Shown here: one piece after another, positions 1-64,000 of the stretch
Layout of the letters: each line of letters opens with the position of its first letter
Numbering within the stretch: the first letter of the stretch is position 1
Source: Henricia sp. BOLD:AAB3569
Lineage: Eukaryota > Echinodermata > Asteroidea > Spinulosida > Echinasteridae
Assembly: GCA_037783545.1 (NCBI GenBank)
Contig: JBBELK010001393.1
Location: forward strand, 62,001-126,000
Length of the DNA stretch: 64,000 nucleotides
Direction of reading: 5' to 3'
Made by a program: the position numbers and the translations under genes
The notes under the pieces: generated by a model
What the model was told of the DNA's origin: nothing
Seen by the model: only the letters and a program-made list of their open reading frames with translations
Database searches by the model: none

Positions 1-32
1 TCCAGACTGTCTTTCCCATGCAGTACATCCAC
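1..32 (-). CDS. CADPS: CADPS exon 8 (PH domain start, cut by window edge)
   Basis: An acceptor with a long pyrimidine tract (tttcctgcacccag|G) opens an exon that completes the split Gly codon of exon 7. It reads [11 protein letters not shown], matching the GYLWAIGKNVW start of the CAPS PH domain. Only 32 bp are inside the window. Y->W and A->C changes make it the most divergent exon seen here, but phase and position fit. Confidence 0.8.
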   Translation of the reverse strand, partial: MDVLHGKDSL

Positions 33-2497
33 CTGGGTGCAGGAAAGAAAAAGACTGAAATTGTTACAATAGAACTTTTGCACGGCAGCCATCTTAGGGG
101 ACAATCACATTGTCAGTGTCATTGTGTGTCATGCATGAGTAGGAGCTTCGTGGATCCATTGTGACATCATTAAATTAAGAAAAGATGTCTCCTACTATGA
201 TCGCCTCTGTGAAGGATGTACCGTTATGCAGTGCTCTCCACGTTCACCACCTGAGGGCACTCTTCGGTAAAGTGGCAGAGGGGCTATTTCACAATAAGTG
301 GTCATTTGAGTAAATTACAGTATAACCCATCCTGGATAACTTTATCAGTGCAAATACATGTTATGAGTGATTTTATATGATGGGTAATATGAAGGACAAG
401 CTACAGAACTATTTTTACATAATTCTACGAGTTATTCGTTTTGAATTTCTCTATTTACATGTCTCATTTCAAATTTTACATTAGTTTAAGTGGAATCATT
501 TGTTGATGATGCATTATTGTGGTGAATTTGGTGATCAATCATGGATATATAGTGTTCAACAATATTGTGAAACTTGGGTTGGTGTAATTCGGTCGAAAAA
601 TTTTAATTTTATGAACATTTTAAAATAGAGTGGATTTCCCGTTAAATAAAATATGGACAGTAATGTCCTCTCCAGGACAAGGTATTCATGACAATGGAAT
701 AGTTTGGAAATATGTACTCACAAGTATGTTTGTATCATCTACAGGACACATTTGATGGAGTAAATATGACAATTTGATCGTGGGAGAGATTTGAGTAAAT
801 ATTATCAAGATCATATTCAGAGTTGTGGAAAATCCGTTAAAAATTTGTCCTCTCCAGGACAGCAGTTAATTGTAATATAACATGTCAACCATAATTGAAA
901 TATTTTATGTTATGTTTGTAAAATTAACAGTACCATTCCTTCTAACAGGACATTGCATGGCATTACCATTTCAACATTTAGTCTGGCCATTATATTGTGA
1001 TATTCTGTGTTTAACAAAATGTCCTCTCCAGACAACCAATTACAAATCATTATTTCATTGGAAAAAATAAACATGTTAATCATATTGCCACGCTCTGATA
1101 TTTTAGGAATTATTAGTATACATTCTGAAGTTTTTAGATCAACAGAGTTTTTGTGAGTTGGACAAGTTTGAAATTTGACCCCCATTTGCCAGTGAGACTG
1201 AAAGTGTACACTTATTGTGAAATAGCCCAGAGGCAGGCTTGGGGGCACTCAATAGACAGTGTGACTTTTGTTTACATCTAAAGCGCCCTCTATTCAAATC
1301 TTGCCTGTCGTTGTGCGCACTCATCATGCTTTGCATAAATTTGCTTTGGGAATGATGTCAAAAGGTATCCAAACTCAAAGCCGATGTTACTGGCGACCTC
1401 TTTCCTTATCCAAATTTATGCACAGCAAGATGTGTGCGCACAGTGAAAGCCACACCCCCAATGTTTTGATGTCTGCCGTGTCGTCAGAGGTCACACCAAT
1501 CCGAGAGCCAAGGACTCCTTTTCTTTATATCTGCCGTAGCTACATGTAGGTGCTTCAACTGAATGAACTGTATGTTTTTTGCTGTTGCTGAAGTTGCATT
1601 TGTTTACTTTGATCAAGTTGCGCGTCTTTGTAGGATTTTGTACGTCAGGAGGGCGCGTCGCGTGCACGTAAAGGGTGCGCATTGCGTGCATGTAATGAAT
1701 CGCTTTTTGTTCCACAAACACAAAACGCACAATCCATGCAGTGGACGCCCCCAGCTATGGTGGATATACAGGGAAGGAGACCTCAGTTACCGGATTGGTC
1801 AATAGGAAACTTGTGGACTGTACATGTACAACTAATTGCGTTCCACATAAAAATACCACATGCAGTCATACATGTATATGTGACCGACTCTGGCAAAACC
1901 CGACGCTTCTCTGCATTTCCCATTACGTGATATGGACCCACAACCTTAAAAAATGGCCTCTGGGACCAACTTGAAAATTTGGCAGAATCAACATCGAGAT
2001 ACATTCAAGATTTGTTTTGTTGTTTGAACTGTCTCAAAATTCCTCATATTATTGACAACAAATTAAACAATCAAGTAGTTTGTCAAACTTTAAAGACCAA
2101 TAGCTCCATTTCACTTTTTCTGATCTGTCATACTTTAATTGGTCATAACTTCGCCAAAAATTATCAGAATTTCCTCAAACATGTTTTAAAAGATACCTTT
2201 TTGTATGCACACTAAGCTGATACCAAAACTTAAATTTTGAATTTTCATCACAAGTGTTGGGTTTTGCTGGAGCCGGTCACATATTGTACGACATCCATCA
2301 ACGTAATAGTGATATTTGAGCTTTAAAATTTGCATATTTAGTATTTTTGTTATGAAATTGTTTCGTAATGAAGTTGAAACAGTTTCAACTTGCAGGAATG
2401 TTCACCGCAAAAATATATCGCAAAAATATATAGCAAGGCACTCAACCACACTTGCTCCCATTCCTGTAATTGGCGGTCCCTTCGCTGTTGGATGTGG

Positions 2498-2536
<39 letters not shown>

Positions 2537-17500: not shown

Positions 17501-17665
17501 CTTGTGATGGCGCTTTCCCCAGATAAGTGCGCGGTATACATAGTAAGTCCATATTATCATTAACTTGAAATGCTTCACATAATTGTTCAAGTTGTTTGAT
17601 TGTTTAACATGTCATTCAAGCTTCGTTGATCAGTGGCCAATTGAGGGGGGAGGGAGGGAGAGGGG

Positions 17666-17734
<69 letters not shown>

Positions 17735-20700
17735 GGGAGAGGGGGGAGGGGGGGGGGGGAGGGGGAGGGGGGAGGGGGGAGGGGGATTGAGGGGGTTGCA
17801 ACTCCACCCCACCCCAAACCGCCCCTTGTTGAGTGGCAAACTACATGTACATATGTTTAATTAGGAAATAAATAAAATATTGCATTGAAAATCCCTCCCC
17901 TGAAACCTTTAAAAAATGTGCCATAGATTGCAGGAGAAAGCACCTACTTGTAATTTTAAAAAAATATCTGCACCCCCTAGCAGCAGGGCGTGTTTTCAGC
18001 ACACAGTAGGAGCCACAACCTACCCTTAACCCAAAGCCAAATCCATCCCCGTTGGGAAAAAAACTTATTGTAATGCCATTCACAAGCGTTGTACACATGT
18101 AAATTTAAAAAGAGCGGTTTTTAAAAACCGGGGTTGTTTTTTTTTTAAATACTTTTCTATAATTAAAATAATCATGCAGATATCTTCTTTCTTTTTTTCA
18201 AAATTGTGCCTACCGTACCTAAACAAAAATACAACTGATCATCACCAACCTTTAAAAAAAGAAAACAATTCAGCCCACCGACCACCCCTGATTATTTTAA
18301 TTACCAGAAAACACAGCAATATTTTGTTTGGCCTAATACATGTACCGGTAGTATCACGTATGTTAAGTGATATTGCATGCCACAAAAACAGATTTTCTGA
18401 ACACCACAGAAAACAAAGTTGTTTTAAAGGCCATACAGATGATCTATTTTTGAGCAATTCTGGGAATAAAACCATCAAGGACATCAACAAACTCTGTCAA
18501 ATGTACCACGTTTTTCAAAACATGAAAATCATATGCGTTTTGCCGGTCTTGGCGGGGTGTTTCAAATATTCGTTCTCAATCGGTCGCGTACTCTGTGGCT
18601 CCCGTTATGCATGTACCGGTACATGTACAATTATGTATGCACTCTGTGGCGCACGTCATACAGGGTGTGCGCGCGACCCATAGAAAATGCATCAAGTTTG
18701 AACAGCACACACGCAGTACACAGCGCCCATTTTGGACCGCCCAGATGAGAAATAAATCGTTTCCAAACAATCAGTGACAATCTAAATAATTTAATCTTTA
18801 TAGATTATTTTCTGGTAAAATTATATCATCTCGGGCGGAAACATTTCATTGGATAGTTGCTACCAGTTCAATCTTTACTTTGAGGAAGGTTTTCCCTGTC
18901 AACTCGTTGATTAACTTTTGGGGTCATTGCAAATGATACAGTGCGCCTTTAAAATTAAAAAACATTCATTTGTATTCATAATCTTTACGTGTACATTTTC
19001 ATTAAAATATATGCCAAATTTTAGGGGAAAAAATATGATAATGGTATAGTTTTGATATTTTGTGACATTTTCCAATTTAGTTGTTTGCGTACAGTTTGTT
19101 TTGGGATTTAATTCACAAAATCCAAACATTTTGGCATTTGGTTCCTAGTGGATGCATTAATAGCTATGCTTGTGATTGATTGCCTGGCTATGCGGCCAAA
19201 AAATACTCTGCAATTTTGAGGAGAAAAACCAAAATGGCAATGATAGATCTTTGATATTTGCTGACATTTTCCATTTTTGTTTGTGTGCATTTATTAGATG
19301 GAGTCTAATCATTTGGCCTTTGCTCTGCAGTGGTCATGTATGCATTGGCTAGATTTGTCGTGTGATTGATTGCCTAGTTATGCCAGGAAAAAATACTCTG
19401 CAAATGTTTCGGGGAAAAAGTAACAATTATTTTTAATATTAGGTGACATTTTCATTTTCTCCCATTTGTTTGCTGCAGTGGATATTGGTGACAGTTATCC
19501 TGTTTTTTTAGCCGGTGACCAGGCGACAGGAAAATATAAATTACATTATATATCTCATGCGTAGATTCCTGTCATCTGATTGGTTAAAAGTGGGGGCATT
19601 GAATCGGCTAGACCCGGCGCGTATATGCCCACCGGGCAATAGTTTTTGCCATGTCCCGGGCATAGTCATTTAGCGGGTTCCGGACGCGCGCATTACATGT
19701 GTTAGCATTGCTGTGCACCAACTATGCAGCTGGGCGCTTCACGTAAACATTCATCAGGACGGTAATGGCGGAATCTCGACGTCATTTTGTCGTCTGTCGT
19801 AGATGATGAAGTCCTTAAGACATGTAAGAAAGTAAGAGAAGTACGTGGCCTACAGTGAAAACTGTGTCAGGTGAAATGTGCTACTAAAGTGCCAGGTGAT
19901 TATGCTACAAATGTTTGCTGTAATACAACTTTTCCGCCGTAGACCAGCTTCCGAAATCGAAACTCGAAGGACCACTGTCATGACTGTATGATGTATCGTT
20001 ACATTAACCAACCAGATGACAAAAATCTACACATTCGGTATATAAAACAAATATGGACTGCTGTTTATTCGGGTCATGGTTAAGATTATAGGCCCTCGGT
20101 GATCTCGAAGCCATGACTACCGTATGCCCCTCGGCTTCCGCCTCGGGGCATAGTCATGGCTTCGAGATCACCTTGGGCCTATAATCTTAACCATGCCCCT
20201 CATTGCAGTCAATATTTGTATATTATACCCTAGTACATGTAGTACAAAAAAGTCCCTGCAAGTCCCCGCAAGTCCTCACAAGTCCCTGCAAGTATCATAC
20301 AGCGTGCTGCATTTTATTTAAATTAAAAAAAGCCGAGAAAAGCAGAGAAATCAAAATGCCAGCTGACTTAAAAAGCGAGTACATTATGTGTACTCTGGAC
20401 AATGTTACTGCATGAATCAATACTGCCTCTGATGTAATTGCCATGCATTGATTACTAGCCAAGGTGAATGTATGTGGTCGAGCAGCACGTGTGCATACAC
20501 ACAATGCTACAGCAATGTTCCAGTTAATACATGTAACGGTACCTCTGGGCACGTAACTTAGTACACGTGTGCCTGTGTACATGTACGTGCAATATTGATA
20601 CAGGAGTCCATAGTTACTGGATTCGTCTCTCACGGACGGCCATCTTCATAAAAAAATACAACTGTATATTAAACGTCATCAGGTGCGCGTACGCACATCA

Positions 20701-29700: not shown

Positions 29701-32700
29701 AAGTGACTGTACATCGTTGGAAAAACATCGTTAATTAAAATTACTTGTAATGATTTTCCCATCTAAAACACACATTTCCACAGACAATGACAAACACAGA
29801 ACTCTTTGGATTTTAAAACAACGCCAACTAAAAGTAAAGAATTGAAGAAAACACGGAAGGAACAGACGCACCAAACGATTTGTTTGGCGTTGGACGAGTA
29901 CTCACGACCGATGGCATGGTCCGATGGCGAACTGGTTGCCTGCGCTTGTGCTGTGTCACATCGATACACTCTGCACCTGGAAAAATTGCACACCTTTTCG
30001 TGCGCGTGCGACGGCCTTCAACATCGTTTTTTGACAATAAAAAATTCCCGTAAAAGATTGATAGAACTATTTAACTACATTACATAATGTATATGAGCAT
30101 ATCATGATTTTTATCTTTAGAGCTCGGCGTATAAGCCGCCCGGTTTATAAGCCGCCGGGAACTTTTTTTTTGGCAAAATCAACGTATAAGCCGCGGCTTA
30201 TATTCCGAAAATTACGGTAAGTCTATGGGTGATGGGAGAGCTGGGCTCTAGTTTTGTTTTTTCCCCTGTCAATTTTTTTTTTTTTGTCATTCCCTCAATT
30301 TACTTGGTTATTCCCACCCACCCTTTCATTCTCCCATAAAAATGACTGTATTTTATATTTAGACAGACATTTCTGCAAGCCTTAACAATTTATCACAGTA
30401 ATTTTAAGTGGCTTCCATTTAATAGAAGAAAGGGTTGCACACTCACATGAGGGTTGGAAACACAGACATTATGATGTGCAACTTATAAGGCCTGTCCGCA
30501 TTGGATTTTTTTGTTAAAACATACCGAGACGATGGGTACAACATGTACATGTACTTTTCCCATTTTTAATCCAGTGCGGACAGTCTAAGAAGTTTTCCTC
30601 CCAGTAACTTTTCCCGAGTCCAGCGGTTACTTTTCCTGGCCAACTGCTGCCCAGAAAAATTGACCAGGTAACTTTTCCCGAGACAATAAATTTAATGCGG
30701 ACATATCGAGTCGGTAAAAGCGCTCTGGAAGCATACATGTACATGTACATCCGGGCCGTGAACTAAGGTCATACTGCATGCTCTTCCACAGTCTCGGTAA
30801 AATGTTCCCGTGTCGAGAACGTACGATACCGCGCGAGACCACTGTTATTTCCGGGCACAAGACCCTATCTCTTCAACGCACGTCGCGAGCGAAATTCTTT
30901 GATTATTTTGTATACGCAGGTTTTTGAAAACGCGTATCCCTAAATACAATCTTGCATTTCAATTGATGAAGTGGGGTATATAATAAATAATAAGCAATCA
31001 AAATGTAAAAATTAACGATCTTTTCTGAGTCGACAAGTCAATCTTTGAAGATCGTAAACTACATGCAGCAAAAGATATGCAACACGCACAGCAGCCGACG
31101 TACAGTGTACATATATACAGACCTCGCTAGCGATAGGTGAAACACCATCTACCAAAAGTAGAGCTCGCAGACTTTTTTTTAGAGTGCCCAAGTTCGAAGC
31201 ATTCATTTTCACATAAATCCACACTTGGGTCATCCATTCCAAATTGGATGAAGAATATGCTAGCAGCAGCTAGCAGGGAAATTTATTCAGGTCACGAAAT
31301 TTTTATAAATTTTTATCGTTTTTAGAGATAATTATGTATTGTAAAAAAACATTTTAGTTACCCGAATCACTTTCGGGTCGGTTGTATACTTAAGATTGGA
31401 CAGACAAATTTATACAAAAAACAAAATCTCGCCCGTGTTATAGGAATAGGCGTTTTAGTCGTGTTGTGCCCGGAAGCTCAGATTTGACCTTTGCCGAGAG
31501 ACTTACATCTAGTCTATTGTCAAGGTCGTTTGTAGTGTAAATGCTACCCGATTCTTGGGGCGGGTGTGGTAGGTTTAAACGACAAATCCACGCATCCGCT
31601 GTGGTCACAAATACAGATACTGTAGCAGTGATTTCTGCAGTTTGTAAACAGTGGTGAAGGCGAATTGAAAGCGAAGTGTAAACGCGACAAATGTTCAGAT
31701 TTGCAGTCGCAATAAAAATGCCCGAATCACTTTCGGGTCGGTTGTATACTTAAGATTGGACAGACAAATTTATACAAAAAACAAAATCTCGCCCGTGTTA
31801 TAGGAATAGGCGTTTTAGTCGTGTTGTGCCCGGAAGCTCAGATTTGACCTTTGCCGCGAGACTTACATCTAGTCTATTGTCAAGGTCGTTTGTAGTGTAA
31901 ATGCTACCCGATTCTTGGGGCGGGTATGGTAGGTTTAAACGACAAATCCACGCATCCGCTGCGGTTACAAATACACATACTGTAGCAATGATTTCTGCTG
32001 TTTGTAAACAGTGGTGAAGGCAAATTGAAAGCCGAATCGAGGTGTAGTGTAAACGCGGCAAATGTTTTTTTTTCTTTAAATAAATTCAACGTTTTCTTGG
32101 GTGTCAGTTTGTGGAAACTAAAACGTGCATTTTGAGTCCAGTGTCCGGAGTGCACACTCGGATGTCAGCTCGTGAAAACTTGTGTCGCCCACTGTCACTG
32201 TGCGGTTTTCACGAACTGTAACAGAAGTGCACTTGGGTGTCACGAATTATAGAGCTGTCATCGATAGTACACGCACACTGCCATTGGCTATTCGATTAAA
32301 TCAGCGTGTTGTCATAGCAACAAAAGCATGACTTTCAGTAGTCAGTTGCCGCAGAAACTGCGGCAGCGAGGAAAATATACCCTGTGGGTACCGGTACATC
32401 CTCACCAGTTGAGACTCAATGCAATAGATCTATGGAGCTTAACAAAACAATTCTAAGTGTTTTCACTGCTAAATTCATGTTTTCTCGAAATTTTTACACT
32501 TTCTGGGGTGTTACAATGTATGTCATATTATGAAGAATTAGTAGCGAGGGTGTATGGTACCGTATTTATACCGACGGTGACACAGCACAGCGCTACACAA
32601 TACACCCATTAGACTCTGTCAGTGTTTTAAATTGTCGCGTATGCGAACTGTTGGATTGCATTTGACTGAGTTTGGGGAGGAAATTATTCCTCTTTTTCCA

Positions 32701-37426: not shown

Positions 37427-37700
37427 GGTCCTCCCAGTAATCTACAGTACCCTCACAGTGTACTCAATATCTTGAACTCCTCCCGCGATCCAAATTTTCG
37501 CGCTGTCATGACCGATATCCTGTTAAATTTGGGGTTGTCGACAGACACATCACAGTGCACTTCGCCTAACCGCCATCTTTGACGATGAGATGTTTTCGTT
37601 GAAAAAGCGCATGCGCCCGTTTGCTCCTAATCACAGGACAGGTGGGCGTGGCATTATTATGATAAAATCCATAGAGTTACAACTCTATGATAAAATCAGA
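37427..37700 (-). promoter_or_regulatory. CADPS: Probable CADPS 5' UTR/promoter with YY1-like motif
   Basis: The 270 bp upstream of the start codon contain AAGATGGCGGTTAG on the minus strand (complement of 37566-37579), about 150 bp before the ATG. AAGATGGCGG is the core of the YY1 element found just downstream of start sites in TATA-less animal promoters. I see no convincing TATA box. The transcription start is not determined. Confidence 0.4.
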
Positions 37701-45829: not shown

Positions 45830-46830
45830 GTGCAGTAGTGTTGTTGTATATAGTATTGCACACCCCGCTTTCTACCATCAGCTGCTGCCGCTGGCTAGCC
45901 TCACTCAGGGCGAAAAGGGAGCCGAGCGTGTAAGTCTCCCCTGCCAGTACATAGCCTCTCCACCACCAAGACTCCTGCAGTGCCTCCTCGTGGCAACACA
46001 CGGTAACTGGGGACCTTGCGGCCTCAGGCTGAATCTGTAGGGGATCTCGGAGCAGCAGTGGGCCCCAGAGACATGGTGTGCAGGCCCACCGGCCGACGTG
46101 TGGATACGTCCTGGTACCATGTCAACCACCGCCCCAGCTATGGGTCAAATAGCTCCACTGCCTTGTGGATGTCTTGGGAAAGTCATAGGCTAAGGGAGTA
46201 AACTCCAACAGCAAATCGGGAGTGGAGCCCCCAAGGCGGTTGTATGGCATACTTGTCACCTTCCGGCAACTCCTGCATCCCGGTCCGCCCCCAGCAGTCT
46301 CGACTTTGTCTTGCAACTGGACCCGGCGTATCATGAGGACGAGAGAGTGAGGCCGATGCAGCGCAAGTCTCCCTCACTTTAATCCAAGTCACGCGCATGT
46401 CTTGACATCACCATCAGTCAATCTTCAAGTCCTGTGGCGATGGGGAAACGGCGAAGCAGTAGGTGTGGATACACTGGGAGCTGTAGTCGCGAACCTGCAC
46501 ACAGGCGGCTCAGGACATGTGGTCGTTCTTCACTGGACCGAGGCAGCAGTGGAGTCCGGCAGCCTTCTGGGTGACCGAGCAGCCCAGAGAGCGGAGGAGC
46601 GCCGTTCCCAGCATGCCGAGCAGAAACGCCAGATGCGCAAAGCCAGAGTCACCGGCTCCAAAAGCACAGCGCCTACCCACTTCTGCCCCACCTGTGGGAG
46701 AGGTTTCCTTGCCCGGATTGGCCTCACCAGCCATCTCCGGACTCATCGCAACAGCTCACCATCCAACTGATGCCATGGTCATCTTCGATTTCGAAGGACG
46801 GACAACAACAACAACATATAGCGCACATAT
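45830..46830 (+). mobile_element. LINE 3' fragment with terminal C2H2 motif
   Basis: The open frame to 46770 ends FCPTCGRGFLARIGLTSHLR then THRNS, followed by a short GAAGGACGGACAACAACAAC tail. A C..CGR....RIGL.SH...H finger at the very C terminus is typical of CR1/RTE/Jockey-group LINE ORF2 proteins. The preceding basic RR.QHAEQKRQ.RK stretch fits. RT and endonuclease are absent. Confidence 0.6.
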
Positions 46831-49051: not shown

Positions 49052-49335
49052 TGGGTTTGCAACCCCAACTGGACCGCCTGGGTAGGTATCCCCCAGGAGA
49101 TGTCTCTAGGGGATTTCCCCACTTCTAAAACTGCACCTCTTTCCTCGTCATCTCAACTAGGCCCTATATTAAAATACCAAACAAAAGCATAAAGGGGTTT
49201 GTTGCCGAAGATGCCGTAAAATTAATAACAAAATTAATAGCGAGCTAAGCGTGGTTTTCAGCACGTCATCAGGGACGCGAGAAACGGCTGCTATGGAGGG
49301 AAATTGAGCAGGGCCGACAGGGGGGTTTTCAGATA
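49052..49335. other. Spacer, nothing recognised
   Basis: Flank of the large TIR element; no coding signal or repeat that I can identify. Confidence 0.5.
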
Positions 49336-50000
49336 GTCATTTGCACAGGAATTCTGCCAAATTTGCAAGACAAGAGTTGCGTAAGTGGGATATAGTTTCG
49401 GCAGGCAACGTTTGAAGTTTGTCGGGAAATTCCCTGCCTTCTAAAATCACGAGCATATGGGACGACACCTTCGCCATAATAGGACCACGTTTCCTCCAAG
49501 CTGGAGCACGCCTATAATATATTAAAGGACCATACCAGACACTAGAGTACCCGAAGGCCTGGCAAGACCCACGATTATAGTCTGGCCGAGCGATTTGTCT
49601 ACTTTAATCTTTAATATTTTAATTTGGTCGGAATTTCGCTTGTGAGATTAAGTTTCGTTTGGACGTGGGCAAATATTGACGTTCGTCGGGAAATTCCTTG
49701 ACTTCCTTGACTTGACAGTGAGCAAATCCGACACAATTAAACTAGCCCGCGAGGCCTGAGCGGCCGCTCATGCGGTAGGCTAGGCCTATACTATTATTGT
49801 TGAGCAGACTGGCAGAAAAGGTTTGGCTGATTCAAAGTCATAAATATCTCGGCGGCTTTGGTTGGGAATTTGACCAAATTTGCCCGAACAGGGAGGGATC
49901 TATGATTTCGTTTTGGCAAACGAAATTGGAAGGTGTTCGGGAATTTCCTTAGCTTCGAAAATGGCGAGCAGAGACTCAAAGTATGAAAACGCGTGGACGT
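49336..50000. repeat. Three decayed relatives of the 273-bp satellite
   Basis: Phrases aligning with the array unit recur in the same orientation: CGTTTGAAGTTTGTCGGGAA (49409), ATTGACGTTCGTCGGGAAAT (49675) and GGAAGGTGTTCGGGAATTTC (49928), against AATTTGAAGTTCGTTGGAAA in the array. Spacings are about 264 and 250 bp, near the array period. Minus-strand translation at 49.8-50.0 kb (SKLRKFPNTFQFRLPKRN) resembles the array's second frame (WKSRNFPTNFKFCMLQTV). Confidence 0.6.
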
Positions 50001-50266
50001 TTTCAGCACGATCGACCAGAACGTTTGCAGATTGCTTGGGGTTCGCAATATTAAGACCTGCACCACACCATTTCACCCACAATCGGATGGAATGGTGGAG
50101 TGGCTTAACCGCACAGCAACCCAATGTAAAGCTTGTTCGTCGGTAGGACGAGCATCTCCCACGTGAGGATGGCATATCGTTTATCCCGGTGGTAGGCTAC
50201 CGAAGGACGATCAAGACACGACGATCATGATATGACGTGTTAATTGTGACTTTACTAACTGGGTAT

Positions 50267-50445
50267 TAGCCTTGTCCAAGGCTATGAAATTGTGTGAATT
50301 CGTATAGAATTTGCCTGTATGCTATGCAGCGAAAGTGCGCCATCGCGCGGTGAATTGTAGCCAACTGCAAAATAGTCTGGTTACCAAAATATCTTGATCG
50401 AAATCCTGACTTCTCGGGCGCGAGGCTGTATCATAGCCTTGTTCT
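50267..50445 (-). mobile_element. TAGCCTTG element (P), copy 1
   Basis: Begins TAGCCTTGTCCAAGGCTA, a perfect 18-bp palindrome. Body GCGCCATCGCGCGGTGAATT and GGTTACCAAAATATCTTGAT, ending near TATCATAGCCTTG. It is inverted relative to copies 2 and 3. Confidence 0.7.
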
Positions 50446-51049
50446 TTCTGTATTCGATGTGTTTTATGGGCGGGGACTCTTTGTGCAAATTTTTCGAACA
50501 GAGCACCGAGACGCGAAAGCTCATTGGCTAACGGTTGTTTGGACAGAACAATACGGTGCCGTTTGAAAAATAGCAGATTTTCCGTACGTATAGCCTATAC
50601 CCAGTTGGTAAGTTCACAAACACGTCATACCTTTACAGAAAATATGTGAGGGATATCTTCTGGTCTTCGTGAAAGTCATCAATTTGCAATTTGTAGGCTG
50701 CATAATTCAAACTACCGTTGATTTCTTCAGTTGTAACACTACGTGTGATGTCGCCATAATTGCATCAGACAGGCCTACATATACACTACACATAATGGCA
50801 CACAGGGCACTACGTTTGCCATACGTGCCATAATTAACGTACTACAACAACAACAACACTACACATGTACGACGTACGTTTATGCTTGCAAACCGGTCAC
50901 AACGAACCATTTGACCCGAGTAATGAGCTCTGATTGGATGTTATGTAAGATATGAATATTTATAAGCACTCGGGTTTCGCATAAGTAATTGCGTCGGATT
51001 TCGAACGCAGATATAAAGAAACACATAACAAATCGAATACAGAAAGAAC
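50446..51049. other. Spacer between P copies 1 and 2
   Basis: The sequences next to the two copies are also inverted (GTTCTTTCTGTATTCGATGT / complement at about 51020-51046), so the inverted repeat extends some 25 bp past the element. The middle has a (CAA)n bit (about 50847) and nothing recognised. Confidence 0.5.
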
Positions 51050-51179
51050 AAGGCTATGATACAGCCTCGCCCGAGAAGTCCGGATTCAGACCAAGATATT
51101 TTGGTAACCAGACTATTTTGCAGTTGGCTACAATTCACCGCGCGATGGCGCACTTTCGCTGCATAGCATACAGGCAAAT

Positions 51180-51529
51180 AGACTGGTTCCCGTGACACAT
51201 ATTCCACACAGGAGAATATAAGGACAGGTAAAGGGCGCTTCATATTGATCTGTAATTGGTCGTCTTTGCGCGTGCGCATTGTGTTTTTTATATTTAAAAA
51301 TTGGCCAAGTCCTTTGCTTTAGGCAATGTACTTTATTTACATAATTGGATATGTTGGACACGCACGGCCAAGTTACAAATGTCAATTCAAAATCTGCGCA
51401 CTTACTAAAAATATAAAAATAATAATAACCACGTGAAGGGCAGAATTCTCCCCGTAATGGCTGCCCTTTACCGATCCCTATATTTTCGCAATAAGCGAAC
51501 CAATATATAGGGATCGGGAACCAATCTAA
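51180..51529 (+). mobile_element. Q element copy 1 with 9-bp target duplication
   Basis: 350 bp; starts AGACTGGTTCCCGTG and ends ATCGGGAACCAATCTAA (inverted ends). CAGGCAAAT occurs immediately on both sides (51171-51179 and 51530-51538). Contains TTGGTCGTCTTTGCGCGTGC and GGGCAGAATTCT. Non-coding. The 9-bp duplication suits a Mutator-like (or Merlin-like) mechanism. Confidence 0.85.
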
Positions 51530-51573
51530 CAGGCAAATTCTTCACGGATTCACACAATTTCATACATAGCCTT

Positions 51574-51907
51574 AGATTGGTTCCCGATCCCTATAGATTG
51601 GTTCGCTTATTGCGAAAATATAGGGATCGGTAAAGGGCGGCCATGACGGGCAGAATTCTGCCCGTCACGTGGTTATTATTATAAGTGCGCAGATTTTGCG
51701 TTGACATTTGTAACTTGGCCGTGCGTGTCGAACATATCCAATTATGTAAATAAAGTACATTGCCTAAAGCAAAGGGCTTGGCCAATTTTTAAATATAAAA
51801 AACACAATGCGCACGCGCAAAGACGACCAATTACAGATCAAGATGAAGCGCCCTTTACCTGTCCTTATATTCTCCTGTGTGGAATATGTGGACGGGAACC
51901 AGTCTAA
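51574..51907 (-). mobile_element. Q element copy 2 with 9-bp target duplication
   Basis: 334 bp, inverted relative to Q1. Starts AGATTGGTTCCCGATCCC, ends GACGGGAACCAGTCTAA. CATAGCCTT flanks both sides (51565-51573 and 51908-51916). Together with Q1 it forms a roughly 700-bp palindrome whose spacer is the 44-bp P fragment. Confidence 0.85.
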
Positions 51908-51927
51908 CATAGCCTTGGACAAGGCTA

Positions 51928-52092
51928 TAGCCTCGCCCGAGAAGTCAGGATTCAGACCAAGATATTTTGGTAACCAGACTATTTTGCAGTTGGCTACAAT
52001 TCACCGCGCGATGGCGCACTTTCGCTGCATAGCATACAGGCAAATTCTTCACGGATTCACACAATTTCATACATAGCCTTGTCCAAGGCTAA
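51928..52092 (+). mobile_element. P element copy 3
   Basis: Uninterrupted copy, GCCTCGCCCGAGAAGTCAGG to the terminal palindrome TAGCCTTGTCCAAGGCTA (52075-52092). It follows copy 2 in tandem. Confidence 0.75.
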
Positions 52093-52469: not shown

Positions 52470-55400
52470 TTTCATTTCATTTCATTTATTATTTCTCAGG
52501 GCAAACATGAAAGGTACAGTACACACAGATGAATATTGACATAAAACAAAACATTACATGGTAACACCCCTGAAGGATTGCCAAATGTGAACTAAATCAC
52601 AATCGAGTGGCTCTTCAAATGCCGCCATGCCAACACTTAAAATACACATGTACACAATTTAAAAAAATAATACTAGGTAATTATAGGCGTTTTAAATAAA
52701 TAAATAAATACATTCTTGTACAGTTATATATGTTGAAGTATGGTTAAGTTACAAATATATTTGCTTACAGTAAAGGGGCTATGCAGGAGAGGAAGTATAA
52801 ATTAATAAATATGTAGACGGAATTCAAGTACATTTATGAAAAATCTCCTTCTTAAAAAAAACAAAAAACAAACAAACAAACAAACAAAACCAACAACCCA
52901 AAAAACAAACAACCCAACAAACAAACAAACCCCTTTTCACTTTTTATCAGAACCTTTATTCTGAGAACAAGGATTTACAGTAAAAACATAATTACAAAAT
53001 CACGATGAAAATGCGTTTAAATTAAAATGGAGCATAAAAGTAATTAAATAAACCAAACTATCTCATCTTCGATAATCGTAAACAAAGCGTCATTATGGCT
53101 CCATTTGTGAACAAAAGCGGTGTCATTACCTTTGAGTTTGTAGTAGTAGTGATCTATGAGAATTTTGCTTTTGATTCTGTGTGTCCACACGGTAAGTACA
53201 TTCGAGAAAGTAGAACGACAGTAAAGAAAATATATGGTTGCTTTGAGGCTAATAATCAGATAATTAGCAAGGTGCACCGCCTCCTTCGCCCAAGGTTTTT
53301 CCATCGGAAGAAGTGACCAGTAGACATCAAAGTTCTGTTTTAGTTCTGGAAGTAATCGTCGCAGTAGAGTTGTCAGCAGTCGAAGTGCGGGCTGAATGGC
53401 AGGACATTGGACAAACAGGTGGAGAGTTGTACCTTTCGATCCACACCATCCACATTGTGGGGATATTAGGGGGTTAATGTGATGCAATACAGTACAGTTT
53501 GGCAGGATGTTATGTAACAAGCGGAACTGAATGTGTCCCTCCCTCTTGGAGGTAGGCAGACTGTAGATCGCCTTCCAAGGTATTTTCCTGTCCAGGGGGA
53601 TGACTCCTTCTTTATGCCAGTGGGTGAGAACTGAGGACTGAAGAGAGTTTAACTGATCATTGATGATTTTATACAAGGTCTTGGATGGCGCACTGGTCAC
53701 GTTAATATCGGGAGGAACATGAATTTCCAGAGGGAGATCGGAGAGTGGAGGCAGAGGTTGTAGATGCAATGGTGACAGTTTGTATCCGGTAATGCCGAAG
53801 AGGTCAGGGAAGATGAGGCTGATGGCACTCTGCACTCTTTGTAAGTCAGCCTGGATCAATCTTGTCGATATTCGGTGAAGCGTGTTGTCCTTAGTCAGGC
53901 TCTCTGCGCAGTTCCATTGTCCTGTGTCGGCATTGATGAGATGGGCAATAGTTCTTATTCCACAGGAAGTGAGGCGGGAAGAGAGAAGGCGGTCTGCACC
54001 GTTTGCTTTAAGGTAAGCAGATTTAAGCGGCAAATTAAGAATAAAATGGTAGGAGTTTGACGGTACCGCAATTTAAGCTCCCGAAATGATCCAAGCACGT
54101 GCAATACTAGCATAAGAAGCAGGGAGGTGAACCATCGATTTTAGGTCTGGTTCCAAAAGGAAAAACTGATCGTCAAAGTTCAAGTTTTGGTATGAACGGA
54201 GGAAATATCTGAGTAAATCAAAGTATCTATGGGGGGAGCTCATGAGAAATCTCTGGATGGTGGAGAAACGGTAAGTTAAAGCACGTGCATGGAGACAGGT
54301 AAGGCCTATACCACCTCTTTCAAGAGGTTGAAAAAGAATATCTTGTCTGAGCCAGTGTCTTCCATTGGACCATACAAAATTAGTAAGTTTCTTCTGGAGC
54401 TCATCGAGAGTGTTTCCTGGAGGGTTTAGTACTGCAAGAATGTGAAGTATTTTCGATGTCGCAAGCTGATTAGCAACCATGTGCCTTTCCTCTGTAGGAG
54501 AGGAACTTTGACAGTCCAATCCAGCGTGAAAGAACTTTGTCAAGTTTATCTTTGCATTCATTCCAATTTCTGTGCAAAAAACTTAGATTGTTACCAAGAT
54601 AAACTCCGAGAAACATGAGGCCTTGATTATTCCACTCAAAGGGGAGGGGCTTGTCGTCTCTATTAGTCCAAGCTCCGACCCATAGTCCTTGGGATTTAAC
54701 TTCGTTAATACAAGCTGCGGAACAATCAGAATATGATTTAAGTATCGTCTCAACTGTTTTAAAACCGGTGTTATTTGAAAAGAAAATGGTGATATCGTCT
54801 GCATAGGCAGACGTAACAACTGGAACGTTAAAAGTAGGTAACTTTAGGGCAGCAGTAGAAAGTTTGTTTCTGAGAGTGTGTAACAGAGGCAATAGCAATA
54901 CAATACAATAATCCAGATAGAGGGCATCCTTGCCGTATTCCTTTTTGAAAGGAAAATGGAGCAGTAACTGAACCACAAACTTTAATTAAACTTTGATTAT
55001 CAGTGTAAAGAAGTTTAACATAATCTATAAATTTATCACCAAAGTTCATTTTTTTTAGGACTTTAAAAAGATAGTTATGGTCGACATTATCAAATGCCTT
55101 TTTCTGATCCAGATTTATAATGGCCAAAGGCTCGTCAGCAATGTTAGCATACATTATGGAATCCTTAATTAAATTAACATTGTCATGAATAGACCGACCA
55201 GGAATATTATAACTTTGGTCGTGATGAATTACGTCACCTATTACATGTTTAAGTCTGTTAGCCATGACTTTAGCAATAATTTTATAGTCCACATTGAGCA
55301 AGGAAATAGGACGCCAGTTGCCTATTTCAAGTAAGTCACCTTTTTTGGGTAGTAGGGTAATGACACCCCTTCGACATGAAAAGGGAAGAGAATGGTTAAG

Positions 55401-55727
55401 AACAGAAAAATGAAAAACAGAAAGTATGTCATCTTTGAGAATATCCCAGAAGGTCTGGAAAAATTCCGCTGTTAGCCCATCAAGGCCTGGAGACTTATCT
55501 TTATTCAATTGTTTCACAACCAGGTCAAGTTCATCAAAGGTGATCTGTTCGTCACAAGAGCGAGCATCATCCGAAGTAAGAGTAGGAAGATCTTCTGATA
55601 GAAAATCAAAAGATGCATCATTGGTTTGGGCTTGACTGTATAAATTCTTGTAAAAGTTACGGATGTGATTTTTTATTTCCGTAGGATTTTCAGTTAAGAC
55701 ACCCGAAGAAAGTCGTATTTTGTGACA
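52470..55727 (-). mobile_element. 5'-truncated L1/Tx1-like LINE
   Basis: The minus strand carries reverse transcriptase and C-terminal region, a 3' UTR of about 570 bp (with a TTTG-rich stretch, 52855-52932) and a tail ending AAATGAAATGAAATGAAA (52470-52487). The 5' end breaks off exactly where the 273-bp array begins, removing the endonuclease domain. I found no clear target duplication: the sequence left of 52470 is not array sequence. Confidence 0.85.
53044..55727 (-). pseudogene. LINE ORF2 reverse transcriptase, frameshifted
   Basis: Reading from 55727: KNHIRNFYKNLY, then LNKDKSPGLDGLTAEFFQTF and ITLLPKKGD....NWRPISLLN. Next come NLDQKKAFDNVDH (motif A, about 55.1 kb), GIRQGCPLSGLLY (about 54.93 kb) and AYADDITIFF (YADD at 54805-54794). 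A connection domain follows, ending in CGWCGSKGTTLHLFVQCP (zinc knuckle-like, about 53.44 kb), typical of L1/Tx1-clade C termini. There are two frameshifts (near 54.9 and 54.5 kb) and one in-frame stop (about 54072), so it is inactive. Upstream array sequence happens to be open in frame but is unrelated. Confidence 0.88.
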
Positions 55728-56273
55728 GTAACCACGTAGCCGAGCTCCGTTTTCCATAAACTCTGAAATTTCTCGGCCATTTCCCAGCGAAAATCTGTCC
55801 ATTTTGCATGACAAGTGCGGAATATATACAGTTTGGAGCATGCAAAATTTGAAGTTCGTTGGAAAATTCCTTGATTTCCAAACTTGCCGGCATTTGGGAC
55901 ACACTTTGACCAAATTCCCGTCACAATCTGGGGTGATTCAACGGCCGTACAAATGTACACCAGCGCAGCGCAGGGTGTCCCAACAGCCACGGTTAGGAGA
56001 GTAACCACGTAGCCGAGCTCCGTTTTCCCTACATCCTTAAATTTCTCTGCCATTTCCAAGCGAAAATCTGTCAATTTTGCATGACAAGTGCGGAATATAT
56101 ACAGTTTGGAGCATGCAAAATTTGAAGTTCGTTGGAAAATTCCTTGATTTCCAAATTTGCCGGCATTTGGGACACACTTTGACCAAATTCCCGTCACAAT
56201 CTGGGGCGAGTCAACGGCCGTCCAAAGGTACACCTGGGCAGCGCAGGGTGTCCCAACAGCCACGGTTAGGGGA

Positions 56274-57910
56274 GTAACCACGTAGCCGAGCTCCGTATTC
56301 CCTACATCCTTAAATTTCTCCACCATTTCCCAGCGAAAATCTGTCAATCTTGCATGACAAGTGCAGAATATATACAGTTTGGAGCATGCAAAATTTGAAG
56401 TTCGTTCGAAAATTCCTTGATTTCCAAATTTGCCGGCATTTGGGACACACTTTGACCAAATTCCCGTCACAATCTGGGGCGAGTCAACGGCCGTCCAAAG
56501 GTACACCTGCGCAGCGCAGGGTGTCCCAACAGCCACGGTTAGGGGAGTAACCACGTAGCCGAGCTCCGTTTTCCCTACATCCTTAAATTTCTCTGCCATT
56601 TCCCAGCGAAAATCTGTCAATTTTGCATGACAAGTGCGGAATATATACAGTTTGGAGCATGCAAAATTTGAAGTTCGTTGGAAAATTCCTTGATTTCCAA
56701 ATTTGCCGGCATTTGAGACACACTTTGACCAAATTCCCGTCACAACCTGGGGCGAGTCAACGGCCGTCCAAAGGTACACCTGCGCAGCGCAGGGTGTCCC
56801 AACAGCCACGGTTAGGGGAGTAACCACGTAGCCGAGCTCCGTTTTCCCTACATCCTTAAATTTATCTGCCATTTCCCAGCGAAAATCTGTCAATTTTGCA
56901 TGACAAGTGCGGAATATATACAGTTTGGAGCATGCACAATTTGCAGTTCGTTGGAAAATTCCTTGATTTCCAAATTTGCCGGCATTTGGGACACACTTTG
57001 ACCAAATTCCCGTCACAATCTGGGGCGAGTCAACGGCCGTCCAAAGGTACACCTGGGCAGCGCAGGGTGTCCCAACAGCCACGGTTAGGGGAGTAACCAC
57101 GTAGCCGAGCTCCGTTTTCCCTACATCCTTAAATTTCTCTGCCATTTCCCAGCGAAAATCTGTCAATTTTGCATGACAAGTGCAGAATATATACAGTTTG
57201 GAGCATGCAAAATTTGAAGTTCGTTCGAAAATTCCTTGATTTCCAAATTTGCCGGCATTTGGGACACACTTTGACCAAATTCCCGTCACAATCTGGGGCG
57301 AGTCAACGGCCGTCCAAAGGTACACCTGCGCAGCGCAGGGTGTCCCAACAGCCACGGTTAGGGGAGTAACACGTAGCCGAGCTCCGTTTTCCCTACATCC
57401 TTAAATTTCTCTGCCATTTCCCAGCGAAAATCTGTCAATTTTGCATGACAAGTGTGGAATATATACAGTTTGGAGCATGCAAAATTTGAAGTTCGTTGGA
57501 AAATTCCTTGATTTCCAAATTTGCCGGCATTTGAGACACACTTTGACCAAATTCCCGTCACAACCTGGGGCGAGTCAACGGCCGTCCAAAGGTACACCTG
57601 CGCAGCGCAGGGTGTCCCAACAGCCACGGTTAGGGGAGTAACCACGTAGCCGAGCTCCGTTTTCCCTACATCCTTAAATTTCTCTGCCATTTCCCAGCGA
57701 AAATCTGTCAATTTTGCATGACAAGTGCGGAATATATACAGTTTGGAGCATGCACAATTTGCAGTTCGTTGGAAAATTCCTTGATTTCCAAATTTGCCGG
57801 CATTTGGGACACACTTTGACCAAATTCCCGTCACAATCTGGGGTGAGTCAACGGCCGTCCAAAGGTACTCCTGCGCAGCGCAGGGTGTCCCAACAGCCAC
57901 GGTTAGGGGT
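56274..57910. repeat. 819-bp (3-unit) higher-order duplication, left part of array
   Basis: Units at 56274, 56547 and 56820 share private variants with those at 57093, 57366 and 57638 in the same order. First unit: GTTCGTTCGAAAATTCC and AAGTGCAGAATA. Second: GGCATTTGAGACAC and CACAACCTGGGG. Third: CATGCACAATTTGCAGTTCG. Confidence 0.85.
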
Positions 57911-60900
57911 GTAACCACGTAGCCGAGCTCCGTTTTCCCTACATCCTTAAATTTCTCTGCCATTTCCTAGCGAAAATCTGTCAATTTTGCATGACAAGTG
58001 CGGAATATATACAGTTTGGAGCATGCAAAATTTGAAGTTCGTTGGAAAAATTCCTTGATTTCCAAATTTGCCGGCATTTGGGAAACACTTTGACCACATT
58101 CCCGTCACAATCTGGGGCGAGTCAACGGCCGTCCAAAGGTACACCTGCGCAGCGCAGGGTGTCCCAACAGCCACGGTTAGGGGAGTAACCACGTAGCCGA
58201 GCTCCGTTTTCCCTAAACTCTGAAATTTCTCGGCCATTTCCAAGCGAAAATCTGTCAATTTTGCATGACAAGTGCGGAATATATACAGTTTGGAGCATGC
58301 AAAATTTGACGTTCGTTGGAAAATTCCTTGATTTCCAAATTTGCCGGCATTTGGGTCACACTTTGACCAAATTCCCGTCACAATCTGGGGCGAGTCAACG
58401 GCCGTACAAATGTACACCAGCGCAGCGCAGGGTGTCCCAACAGCCACGGTTAGGGGAGTAACCACGTAGCCGAGCTCCGTTTTCCCTAAACTCTGACATT
58501 TCTCGGCCATTTCCCAGCGAAAATCTGTCAATTTTGCATGACAAGTGCGGAATATATACAGTTTGGAGCATGCAAAATTTGAAGTTCGTTGGAAAATTCC
58601 TTGATTTCCAAATTTGCCGGCATTTGGGACACACTTTGACCAAATTCCCGTCACAATCTGGGGCGAGTCAACGGCCGTCCAAAGGTACACCTGCGCAGCG
58701 CAGGGTGTCCCAACAGCCACGGTTAGGGGAGTAACCACGTAGCCGAGCTCCGTTTTCCCTACATCCTTACATTTCTCTGCCATTTCCCAGCGAAAATCTG
58801 TCAATTTTGCATGACAAGTGCGGAATATATACAGTTTGGAGCATGCAAAATTTGAAGTTCGTTGGAAAATTCCTTGATTTCCAAATTTGCCGGCATTTGG
58901 GACACACTTTGACCAAATTCCCGTCACAATCTGGGGCGAGTCAACGGCCGTCCAAAGGTACACCTGCGCAGCGCAGGGTGTCCCAACAGCCACGGTTAGG
59001 GGAGTAACCACGTAGCCGAGCTCCGTTTTCCCTACATCCTTAAATTTCTCTGCCATTTCACAGCGAAAATCTGTCAATTTTGCATGACAAGTGCGGAATA
59101 TATACAGTTTGGAGCTTTCCAAATTTGAAGTTCGTTGGAAAATTCCTTGATTTCCAAATTTGCCGGCATTTGGGTCACACTTTGACCAAATTCCCGTCAC
59201 AATCTGGGGCGAGTCAACGGCCGTACAAATGTACACCAGCGCAGCGCAGGGTGTCCCAACAGCCACGGTTAGGGGAGTAACCACGTAGCCGAGCTCCGTT
59301 TTCCCTAAACTCTGAAATTTCTCGGCCATTTCCCAGCGAAAATCTGTCAATTTTGCATGACAAGTGCGGAATATATACAGTTTGGAGCATGCACAATTTG
59401 AAGTTCGTTGGAAAATTCCTTGATTTCTAAATTTGCCTGCATTTGGGACACACTTTGACCAAATTCCCGTCACAATCTGGGGTGAGTCAACGGCCGTACA
59501 AATGTACACCAGCGCAGCGCAGGGTGTCCCAACAGCCACGGTTAGGGAGTAACCACGTAGCCGAGCTCCGTTTTCCCTAAACTCTGACATTTCTCGGCCA
59601 TTTCCCAGCGAAAATCTGTCAATTTTGCATGACAAGTGCGGAATATATACAGTTTGGAGCATGCAAAATTTGAAGTTCGTTGGAAAATTCCTTGATTTCT
59701 AAATTTGCCTGCATTTGGGACACACTTTGACCAAATTCCCGTCACAATCTGGGGTGAGTCAACGGCCGTACAAATGTACACCAGCGCAGCGCAGGGTGTC
59801 CCAACAGCCACGGTTAGGGGAGTAACCACGTAGCCGAGCTCCGTTTTCCCTAAACTCTGAAATTTCTCGGCCATTTCCCAGCGAAAATCTGTCAATTTTG
59901 CATGACAAGTGCGGAATATATACAGTTTGGAGCATGCAAAATTTGAAGTTCGTTGGAAAATTCCTTGATTTCCAAATTTGCCGGCATTTGGGACACACTT
60001 TGACCAAATTCCCGTCACAATCTGGGGCGAGTCAACGGCCGTCCAAAGGTACACCTGCGCAGCGCAGGGTGTCCCAACAGCCACGGTTAGGGGAGTAACC
60101 ACGTAGCCGAGCTCCGTTTTCCCTACATCCTTAAATTTCTCTGCCATTTCACAGCGAAAATCTGTCAATTTTGCATGACAAGTGCGGAATATATACAGTT
60201 TGGAGCTTTCCAAATTTGAAGTTCGTTGGAAAATTCCTTGATTTCCAAATTTGCCGGCATTTGGGTCACACTTTGACCAAATTCCCGTCACAATCTGGGG
60301 CGAGTCAACGGCCGTACAAATGTACACCAGCGCAGCGCAGGGTGTCCCAACAGCCACGGTTAGGGGAGTAACCACGTAGCCGAGCTCCGTTTTCCCTAAA
60401 CTCTGAAATTTCTCGGCCATTTCCCAGCGAAAATCTGTCAATTTTGCATGACAAGTGCGGAATATATACAGTTTGGAGCATGCAAAATTTGAAGTTCGTT
60501 GGAAAATTCCTTGATTTCCAAATTTGCCGGCATTTGGGACACACTTTGACCAAATTCCCGTCACAATCTGGGGTGAGTCAACGGCCGTCCAAATGTACAC
60601 CTGCGCAGCGCAGGGTGTCCCAACAGCCACGGTTAGGGGAGTAACCACGTAGCCGAGCTCCGTTTTCCCTACATCCTTAAATTTCTCTGCCATTTCGCAG
60701 TGAAAATCTGTCAATTTTGCATGACAAGTGCGGAATATATACAGTTTGGAGCATGCAAAATTTGACGTTCGTTGGAAAATTCCTTGATTTCCAAATTTGC
60801 CGGCATTTGGGTCACACTTTGACCAAATTCCCGTCACAATCTGGGGCGAGTCAACGGCCGTACAAATGTACACCAGCGCAGCGCAGGGTGTCCCAACAGC

Positions 60901-62281
60901 CACGGTTAGGGGAGTAACCACGTAGCCGAGCTCCGTTTTCCCTAAACTCTGACATTTCTCGGCCATTTCCCAGCGAAAATCTGTCAATTTTGCATGACAA
61001 GTGCGGAATATATACAGTTTGGAGCATGCAAAATTTGAAATTCGTTGGAAAATTCCTTGATTTCCAAATTTGCCTGCATTTGGGACACACTTTGACCAAA
61101 TTCCCGTCACAATCTGGGGTGAGTCAACGGCCGTACAAATGTACACCAGCGCAGCGAAGGGTGTCCCAACAGCCACGGTTAGGGGAGTAACCACGTAGCC
61201 GAGCTCCGTTTTCCCTAAACTCTGACATTTCTCGGCCATTTCCCAGCGAAAATCTGTCAATTTTGCATGACAAGTGCGGAATATATACAGTTTGGAGCAT
61301 GCAAAATTTGAAGTTCGTTGGAAAATTCCTTGATTTCCAAATTTGCCGGCATTTGGGACACACTTTGACCAAATTCCCGTCACAATCTGGGACGAGTCAA
61401 CGGCCGTCCAAAGGTACACCTGCGCAGCGCAGGGTGTCCCAACAGCCACGGTTAGGGGAGTAACCACATAGCCGAGCCCCGTTTTCCCTACATCCTTAAA
61501 TTTCTCTGCCATTTCCCAGCGAAAATCTGTCAATTTTGCATGACAAGTGCGGAATATATACAGTTTGGAGCATGCAAAATTTGAAGTTCGTTGGAAAATT
61601 CCTTGATTTCCAAATTTGCCGGCATTTGGGTCACACTTTGACCAAATTCCCGTCACAATCTGGGGCGAGTCAACGGCCGTACAAATGTACACTAGTGCAG
61701 CGCAGGGTGTCCCAACAGCCACGGTTAGGGGAGTAACCACGTAGCCGAGCTCCGTTTTCCCTAAACTCTGAAATTTCTCGGCCATTTCCCAGCGAAAATC
61801 TGTCAATTTTGCATGACAAGTGCGGAATATATACAGTTTATTAGAGCATGCAAAATTTGAAGTCCGTTGGAAAATTCGTTGATTTCAAAATTTGCCGGCA
61901 ATTGGGACACACTTTGACCAAATTCCCGTCACAATCTGGGGCGAGTCAACGGCCGTCCAAAGGTACACTTGCGCAGCGCAGGGTGTCCCAACAGCCACGG
62001 TTAGGGGAGTAACCACATAGCCGAGCTCCGTTTTCCCTACATCCTTACATTTCTCTGCCATTTCCCAGCGAAAATCTGTCAATTTTGCATGACAAGTGCG
62101 GAATATATACAGTTTGGAGCATGCAAAATTTGAAGTCCATTGGAAAATTCGTTGATTTCCAAATTTGCCGGCATTTGGGACACACTTTGACCAAATTCCC
62201 GTCACAATCTGGGGCGAGTCAACGGCCGTCCAAAGGTACACTTGCGCAGCGCAGGGTGTCCCAACAGCCACGGTTAGGGGA

Positions 62282-63888
62282 GTAACCACGTAGCCGAGCT
62301 CCGTTTTCCCTAAACTCTGAAATTTCTCGGCCATTTCCCAGCGAAAATCTGTCAATTTTGCATGACAAGTGCGGAATATATACAGTTTGGAGCATGCAAA
62401 ATTTGAAGTCCATTGGAAAATTCGTTGATTTCCAAATTTGCCGGCATTTGGGACACACTTTGACCAAATTCCCGTCACAATCTGGGGCGAGTCAACGGCC
62501 GTCCAAAGGTACACTTGCGCAGCGCAGGGTGTCCCAACAGCCACGGTTAGGGGAGTAACCACGTAGCCGAGCTCCGTTTTCCCTACATCCTTACATTTCT
62601 CTGCCATTTCCCAGCGAAAATCTGTCAATTTTGCATGACAAGTGCGGAATATATACAGTTTGGAGCATGCAAAATTTGAAGTTCGTTGGAAAATTCCTTG
62701 ATTTCCAAATTTGCCGGCATTTGGGACACACTTTGACCAAATTCCCGTCACAATCTGGGGTGAGTCAACGGCCGTCCAAATGTACACCTGCGCAGCGCAG
62801 GGTGTCCCAACAGCCACGGTTAGGGGAGTAACCACGTAGCCGAGCTCCGTTTTCCCTACATCCTTAAATTTATCTACCATTTCCCAGCGAAAATCTGTCA
62901 ATTTTGCATGACAAGTGCTGAATATATACAGTTTGGAGCATGCAAGATTTGCAGTTCGTTGGAAAATTCCTTGATTTCCAAATTTGCCGGCATTTGGGAC
63001 ACACTTTGACCAAATTCCCGTCACAATCTGGGGCGAGTCAACGGCCGTACAAATGTACACCAGCGCAGCGCAGGGTGTCCCAACAGCCACGGTTAGGGAA
63101 GTAACCACGTAGCCGAGCTCCGTTTTCCCTAAACTCTGAAATTTCTCGGCCATTTCCCAGCGAAAATCTGTCAATTTTGCATGACAAGTGCGGAATATAT
63201 ACAGTTTAGAGCATGCAAAATTTGAAGTCCGTTGGAAAATTCGCTGATTTCCAAATTTGCCGGCATTTGGGACACACTTTGACCAAATTCCCGTCACAAT
63301 CTGGGGCGAGTCAACGGCCGTCCAAAGGTACACTTGCGCAGCGCAGGGTGTCCCAACAGCCACGGTTAGGGGAGTAACCACGTAGCCGAGCTCCGTTTTC
63401 CCTACATCCTTACATTTCTCTGCCATTTCCCAGCGAAAATCTGTCAATTTTGCATGACAAGTGCGGAATATATACAGTTTAGAGCATGCAAAATTTGAAG
63501 TTCGTTGGAAAATTCCTTGATTTCCAAATTTGCCGGCATTTGGGACACACTTTGACCAAATTCCCGTCACAATCTGGGGTGAGTCAACGGCCGTCCAAAT
63601 GTACACCTGCGCAGCGCAGGGTGTCCCAACAGCCACGGTTAGGGGAGTAACCACGTAGCCGAGCTCCGTTTTCCCTACATCCTTAAATTTCTCTGCCATT
63701 TCGCAGCGAAAATCTGTCAATTTTGCATGACAAGTGCGGAATATATACAGTTTGGAGCATGCAAAATTTGAAGTCCGGCATTTGGGTCACACTTTGACCA
63801 AATTCCCGTCACAATCTGGGGCGAGTCAACGGCCGTACAAATGTACACCAGCGCAGCGCAGGGTGTCCCAACAGCCACGGTTAGGGAA
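62282..63888. repeat. 819-bp (3-unit) higher-order pattern, right part of array
   Basis: Scored by the two main variable sites, units at 62282, 62555 and 62828 give the same order of types as 63101, 63374 and 63647. The third unit of each triad also ends in the private GTTAGGGAAGTAACC. The last triad carries a roughly 31-bp deletion. Confidence 0.7.
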
Positions 63889-64000
63889 GTAACCACGTAG
63901 CCGAGCTCCGTTTTCCCTAAACTCTGAAATTTCTCGGCCATTTCCCAGCGAAAATCTGTCAATTTTGCATGACAAGTGCGGAATATATACAGTTTGGAGC

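Follow-up and report, generated by a model that had tools for sequence, protein, structure and literature searches.

Complex satellite families with subfamilies and higher-order repeats show an organization of the alpha-satellite type, and coding macrosatellites of the D4Z4/DUX4 type consist of tandem units with an open frame. Helentrons of the Pacific oyster, Crassostrea gigas, are reported to carry satellite-like arrays (PMC7492417). Here we describe a 273-bp satellite in the genome of Henricia sp. that shares features with each of these systems. It resembles the alpha-satellite type in that its monomers, each some hundreds of bp long, are arranged head-to-tail and homogenized locally, its subfamilies form blocks, one sampled block consists of dimers of 258- and 273-bp units, and its arrays lie at contig ends. 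A CENP-B box (NTTCGNNNNANNCGGGN) is absent among the matches listed, of which the first six on each strand have three or four mismatches. Tandem units with an open frame are shared with D4Z4/DUX4-type macrosatellites (PMC2671837), but the frame described here is unconstrained and is absent from 205- and 296-bp relatives. As with the C. gigas Helentron arrays (PMC7492417), copies of one repeat family are found in arrays as well as in small dispersed clusters; unlike in that system, element ends were not found around three dispersed clusters. A further likeness is to layered centromeric satellite expansion: related subfamily blocks occur in a consistent order where seen, and degenerate copies lie outside an array edge. 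The present case differs in that the order is a composite of four contigs. Among the matches listed, no paper title on 273-bp satellites, satellite ORFs, superfamilies or layered expansion names the 273-bp repeat. We conclude that the array is noncoding satellite DNA, a reading to which we assign a probability of about 0.9.

The window, the whole stretch of 64,000 nucleotides that was analyzed, corresponds to positions 62001-126000 of the 156604-base contig C1393 in a genome of 740.7 Mb and 2104 contigs. The array (plus strand) occupies positions 55727 to 64000 and consists of 273-bp units arranged head-to-tail, with 31 unit starts that represent 29 near-full units, one unit with a 31-bp deletion and one unit cut by the window end. 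TRF reported 29.5 copies of 273 bp with a 96% match between 55727 and 63774; splitting into units, alignment and anchor positions showed that the array goes on to 64000 after the unit with the deletion. Core-to-core intervals in the window are exactly 273 bp in 25 of 30 cases (the rest are 272, 272, 274, 276 and 242 bp), and mean pairwise identity among the first 29 units is 0.960. As an array, this 273-bp repetition is far outside chance. The sequence-only reading, made earlier from the letters of this DNA, had ended the array at 64000; it instead extends along the contig as far as base 156000 or beyond, and in its last bins mean pairwise identity rises to 0.994. The contig also contains 17 units of 279 bp. 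A recent local amplification beyond the window (loci L009-L011; 0.994 identity, 279-bp units) is likely.

A 5′-truncated non-LTR retrotransposon (LINE) on the minus strand (52470..55726) adjoins the left edge of the array. It was recognized by its sequence and its reverse transcriptase (RVT_1, E 2e-28), together with a zf-RVT match (E 2.6e-4) that is under the curated cut-off, and its 3′ end was set by eye. The array edge in contig C919 differs from the window edge in both flank and phase, and the retrotransposon is therefore not part of the satellite repeat. There is a very slight chance that misassembly produced the array or the boundary between array and LINE, given that the arrays reach contig ends, that long tandem arrays often assemble badly and that the left junction has no target-site duplication evident by eye. 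This is countered by the recurrence of the 273-bp unit in six contigs with array-specific variants, and by the edge unit, whose 13 differences from the consensus are the joint highest number among the 31 units.

The array bears the marks of homogenization by unequal exchange or conversion that are expected of a noncoding satellite. Alignment columns 35-51 carry two haplotypes, as do columns 229-242, and all four combinations of these occur. The four-gamete test is failed by 142 of 595 informative site pairs, which corresponds to at least nine exchange events, and units 13 and 17, four units apart, are identical. Consensus states are array-specific among the sampled arrays. These observations fit an array shaped by unequal exchange and local amplification. 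The unit contains an 11-bp inverted repeat, AATTTTGCATG, the arms of which are substituted in some units. A scan of the unit for 10-bp AA/TT periodicity returned nothing notable, a search of the whole window against Rfam at gathering thresholds returned no RNA-gene match, and a 30-base unit pattern had no matches in viral contigs. We make no claim that the core holds a conserved binding box: core and remainder carry 1.29 and 1.47 alleles per site (P 0.066 for sites with zero alleles), in a comparison slightly biased by the selection of units via an anchor located inside the core. The most conserved 20-bp stretch was likewise no better than permutation (P 0.855).

The earlier description of this repeat as a 273-bp satellite with a stop-free minus frame, giving ORFs of 553, 571, 754 and 611 codons, is upheld by TRF and by the unit consensus from the window, in which one minus frame has no stops and the other five frames have 2-4 each. 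All four ORFs are present on the minus strand, at 55694..57355 (553 codons, the last of which reach into the LINE), 57947..59662 (571 codons), 59542..61806 (754 codons) and 61885..63720 (611 codons), and each is a by-product of the stop-free frame. Further minus-strand ORFs are of 201 aa and, running from the first unit into the adjoining retrotransposon, of 361 aa. A second minus frame and a plus frame had also been described as open over 66-82 codons per unit. This is roughly right: in a straight-through reading of the array, in which frames are mixed by indels between units, two plus frames often stay free of stops for 78-90 codons, and minus frames often do so for 57-93 codons. When the circular 273-mer was shuffled 10000 times with its dinucleotides preserved, 1983 shuffles (19.8%) had at least one stop-free frame, and the open frame, unlike the array itself, is not beyond chance.

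The long ORFs exist because the unit is stop-free, its period is divisible by three and the units are homogenized. By chance, a single unit was stop-free in one frame, with a length of 273 that is divisible by three. The 273-bp units have spread and been homogenized within arrays while drifting near-neutrally, and homogenization passes the open frame from unit to unit, each ORF running on to the next point stop or frame-breaking indel. Any role of the array would be exerted via DNA, chromatin or noncoding transcripts and not via protein.

Selection was assessed among the units of the window and across a family sample of 698 unit intervals, cut from eight stretches that lie on six contigs of this genome. 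For the open frame, 406 pairs among 29 window units give a pairwise pN/pS of 0.97, compared with 0.67-1.02 in the other frames. The window contains 64 derived alleles at 57 sites, of which 45 are nonsynonymous (N), 16 synonymous (S) and three stops, while random placement predicts 45.0, 15.3 and 3.7. The observed/expected ratio of (N+stop)/S is 0.95 in the open frame and similar, at 0.85-1.11, in the other five. Across the family, 688 of the 698 intervals were aligned, with ten dropped for lengths outside 250-290 bp. The 375 alleles in these units give an open-frame (N+stop)/S of 0.90 relative to neutral (null 95% range 0.85-1.17), with 20 stop alleles where 21.0 are expected. The ratio is 0.99 for alleles seen at least twice, inside the null 95% range, 0.85 for those seen at least five times (null 0.74-1.39) and 0.82 for those seen at least 20 times (null 0.52-2.10). 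Plus frame 1, which contains three stops, is slightly enriched in synonymous alleles at two of the four thresholds (P 0.049 and 0.029, uncorrected, in 24 tests).

Indels had been called rare, which holds within the window and fails for the family as a whole, where 165 of the 698 intervals differ from 273 bp (five of the 165 are merged double units). Of 155 small net length changes (up to 30 bp), 130 are frame-breaking and 25 are multiples of three, 20 of the latter being the 279-bp units of C1393 and C919. Neither the purifying selection (all ratios fall at 0.82-0.99, inside the null) nor the frame-preserving indels that a repeat gene leads one to expect were found in these data. The sequence-only reading had seen no evident selection on protein and had named beforehand a dN/dS near 1 between units as the mark of a noncoding satellite; the pN/pS of 0.97, together with N/S and stop counts that look like random placement, agrees on both points. 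The open frame drifts close to neutrally and is under no protein constraint, although a coding role too young to leave an N/S signal could still exist.

Interval length is divisible by three in 559 of the 698 intervals, and 420 of these 559 are individually open in the minus frame. The frame is also stop-free in the consensus of all eight stretches (six contigs) and, in homologous position, in the 258-bp unit of a related array. Since the units are alike and the frame tests are neutral, the frame is frequent by homogeneity and not by selection; it is common through unit likeness, not through being kept, and homogeneity and descent account for its presence in the intervals, the eight consensuses and the 258-bp unit. 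This persistence, with ORFs of up to 754 codons, is what would speak for a giant minus-strand protein of 91-aa repeats or a tandemly amplified coding exon, an interpretation that we regard as extremely improbable. The 754-aa ORF even passes Pfam cut-offs for Med14 RM (E 3.1e-16) and Dicty_spore_N (E 1.1e-4). Both identities were rejected as artefacts of repetition: no single stretch of the ORF passes the cut-off alone for either family, a two-unit piece gives four families that are all under cut-off and do not include Med14, and one 91-aa unit gives no Pfam family. A search for a recognizable domain or homologue thus yielded, besides the zero Pfam families of the single unit, a best PDB match of E 0.072 for the 754-aa ORF. 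Neutral N/S and stop counts, frame-breaking indels, open-frame pN/pS of 1.00 and 1.48 between subfamilies, and 205- and 296-bp family members without a frame open through the array all weigh against a protein. Whether the unit is a satellite or derives from an exon had been left undecided; the single-unit Pfam result, the PDB score and the 205- and 296-bp relatives provide no sign of an exon. This array is a worked case of satellites mimicking genes, in which a stop-free unit with a length that is a multiple of three produces ORFs several hundred codons long, and a domain score that looks significant vanishes once one unit is searched alone. Single-unit tests and N/S counts over the units of an array should therefore be part of gene calling and domain scanning.

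The noncoding satellite belongs to a superfamily with a common core of approximately 110-150 bp, a variable remainder and periods of 205, 258, 273 and 296 bp, as determined by TRF and alignment. The 205- and 296-bp periods are not multiples of three, and their consensuses have no frame that is open through the array. In the open frame, core pN/pS is 1.00 for 273 vs 258 and 1.48 for 273 vs 296, while 258 vs 296 has 10 N and 0 S differences; the frame is therefore without constraint between subfamilies. The second minus frame gives core values of 0.16 (273 vs 258; raw Fisher P 0.001), 0.44 (273 vs 296; raw P 0.036) and 0.95 (258 vs 296), and is one of six frames compared. The bias is possibly a trace of old coding descent. 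We consider it very improbable that the core comes from an old coding segment of a transposon or gene in this frame, long dead and now satellite only. The differences between 273 and 258 are indeed mostly synonymous there (5.0 N, 8.0 S), but the bias concerns one of six frames, is lacking in 258 vs 296, and is accompanied by in-frame stops in the 273-, 258- and 296-bp units, with no significant departure among units. Furthermore, no Pfam family exceeds the cut-off (the best is F-box, E 0.064), and a 651-bp degenerate relic in the window has 8-11 stops in each of six frames.

Sampling along contigs, with array continuity between sample points assumed, places the subfamilies in blocks. In C390, 273-bp units were sampled at 120, 160, 185 and 205-245 kb, 258-bp units at 250, 260, 280, 320, 360, 450 and 500 kb, and 296-bp units at 550 and 701 kb, with no satellite match at 0, 60 and 90 kb. 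At 400 kb of the same contig (C390:400001-401500, L037), 258- and 273-bp units alternate as a dimeric higher-order repeat with a consensus of 531 bp. C541 has 273-bp units at 1-30 kb and 258-bp units at 40, 70 and 120 kb. The 205-bp unit was found on the minus strand at 680 kb of C123, which has 273-bp units at 720, 740-770, 785 and 806 kb, and at 1 and 40 kb of C207 (also minus strand), in which 273-bp units follow at 65, 80-100, 110-120, 140, 170-180 and 185 kb and samples at 200, 240, 300, 360 and 429 kb had no satellite match. C919 carries 273-bp units on the minus strand at 1-15755. In all six sampled contigs, which are those among the matches listed, the family extends to a contig end or stops no more than about 600 bases short of one, as expected of large unresolved arrays. 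A double TTAGGG repeat is absent from the sampled loci (L001-L048). The arrays are probably constitutive heterochromatin, (peri)centromeric or of another kind, built up in layers.

The composite block order is 205|273|258|296, pieced together from C390, C541, C123 and C207, none of which contains all four subfamilies. Core distances are 0.104 (273-258), 0.070 (258-296) and 0.174 (273-296), and are thus additive in the order of the blocks along C390. The 205 core, at 0.252 to 273, 0.248 to 258 and 0.294 to 296, lies outside this chain because it is about equally far from 273 and 258. In a separate alignment, unique core states number 14 in 273, nine in 296 and one in 258. When the 205 unit and the window relic are used as outgroups, each indicates that six of the eight usable 296 states are derived; for the 273 states, the 205 unit gives an even result, five to five (of 12), and the relic agrees with 273 in eight of 13. 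The distances and polarized states fit layered growth. We tentatively suggest that the 205-, 273-, 258- and 296-bp blocks could form an ordered, layered centromere domain, in which the 273, 258 and 296 blocks would have been seeded by their neighbours so that order reflects descent, with a 258-like branching point from which 296 arose, and with 205 and the relics as older layers. If this were true, the order of the 273, 258 and 296 blocks along the chromosome would record their descent. The subfamily series provides heterochromatin markers for this genome and may also allow the order in which the arrays grew to be read.

Outside the array edge, the window holds a relic of three degenerate core copies on the plus strand (49348-49479, 49666-49706 and 49865-49969; span 49348..49969), detected in an nhmmer search that used a profile of the core (E 2.3e-17, 8.3e-07 and 7.9e-07), with no match in the reversed window. 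The distance from the first to the third copy is 517 bp, or about 2 x 258. A search of the genome with the relic stretch gave at least 42 matches on at least 28 contigs (40 of 248 candidates scored), the first of which is the stretch itself. Inner loci in C30, C141 and C454 contain eight, two and two degenerate cores, respectively, with irregular spacing. Such multi-copy clusters, together with the one in the window, raise the idea that the repeat originated as tandem copies inside a mobile element, which scattered them in short clusters that were later amplified into arrays; the satellite-like arrays reported from Helentrons of the Pacific oyster offer a precedent (PMC7492417). We regard this origin as rather unlikely. 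Common element ends or flanks were not seen among the C30, C141 and C454 clusters (three loci only). Among the window matches listed for these three dispersed clusters, up to six per locus, none extended from the relic region (49276-49982) into the sequence on either side, other cluster matches falling on unrelated places or on the array itself, and the two array edges are unlike in flank and phase.

Several other features occur in the window. A short stretch at about 50000-50120 (plus strand), adjoining the satellite relic (49348-49969), reads like what we take to be a Ty3/gypsy integrase core. Nested inverted repeats, whose four longest pairs are 111-209 nt long and 95-98% complementary, are found at 50283-52071 and resemble inserted MITEs. 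An ORF on the minus strand (36527-37441) has no Pfam family over cut-off and, searched as the 36.5-37.4 kb ORF by tblastn against plasmids, no match there; it presumably corresponds to a sequence like the N-terminus of the calcium-dependent secretion activator CADPS/CAPS. A plus-strand ORF at 46351-46770 ends in a C2H2-like finger with weak Pfam zinc-finger matches under cut-off, which we assume to be of the kind with which some LINE proteins of invertebrates terminate. There are also two-copy tandem duplications at 6840-7247 (203 bp, 99% TRF match) and 31361-32032 (360 bp, 97%), and a G-rich tract of about 150 bp with scattered A at 17645-17795.
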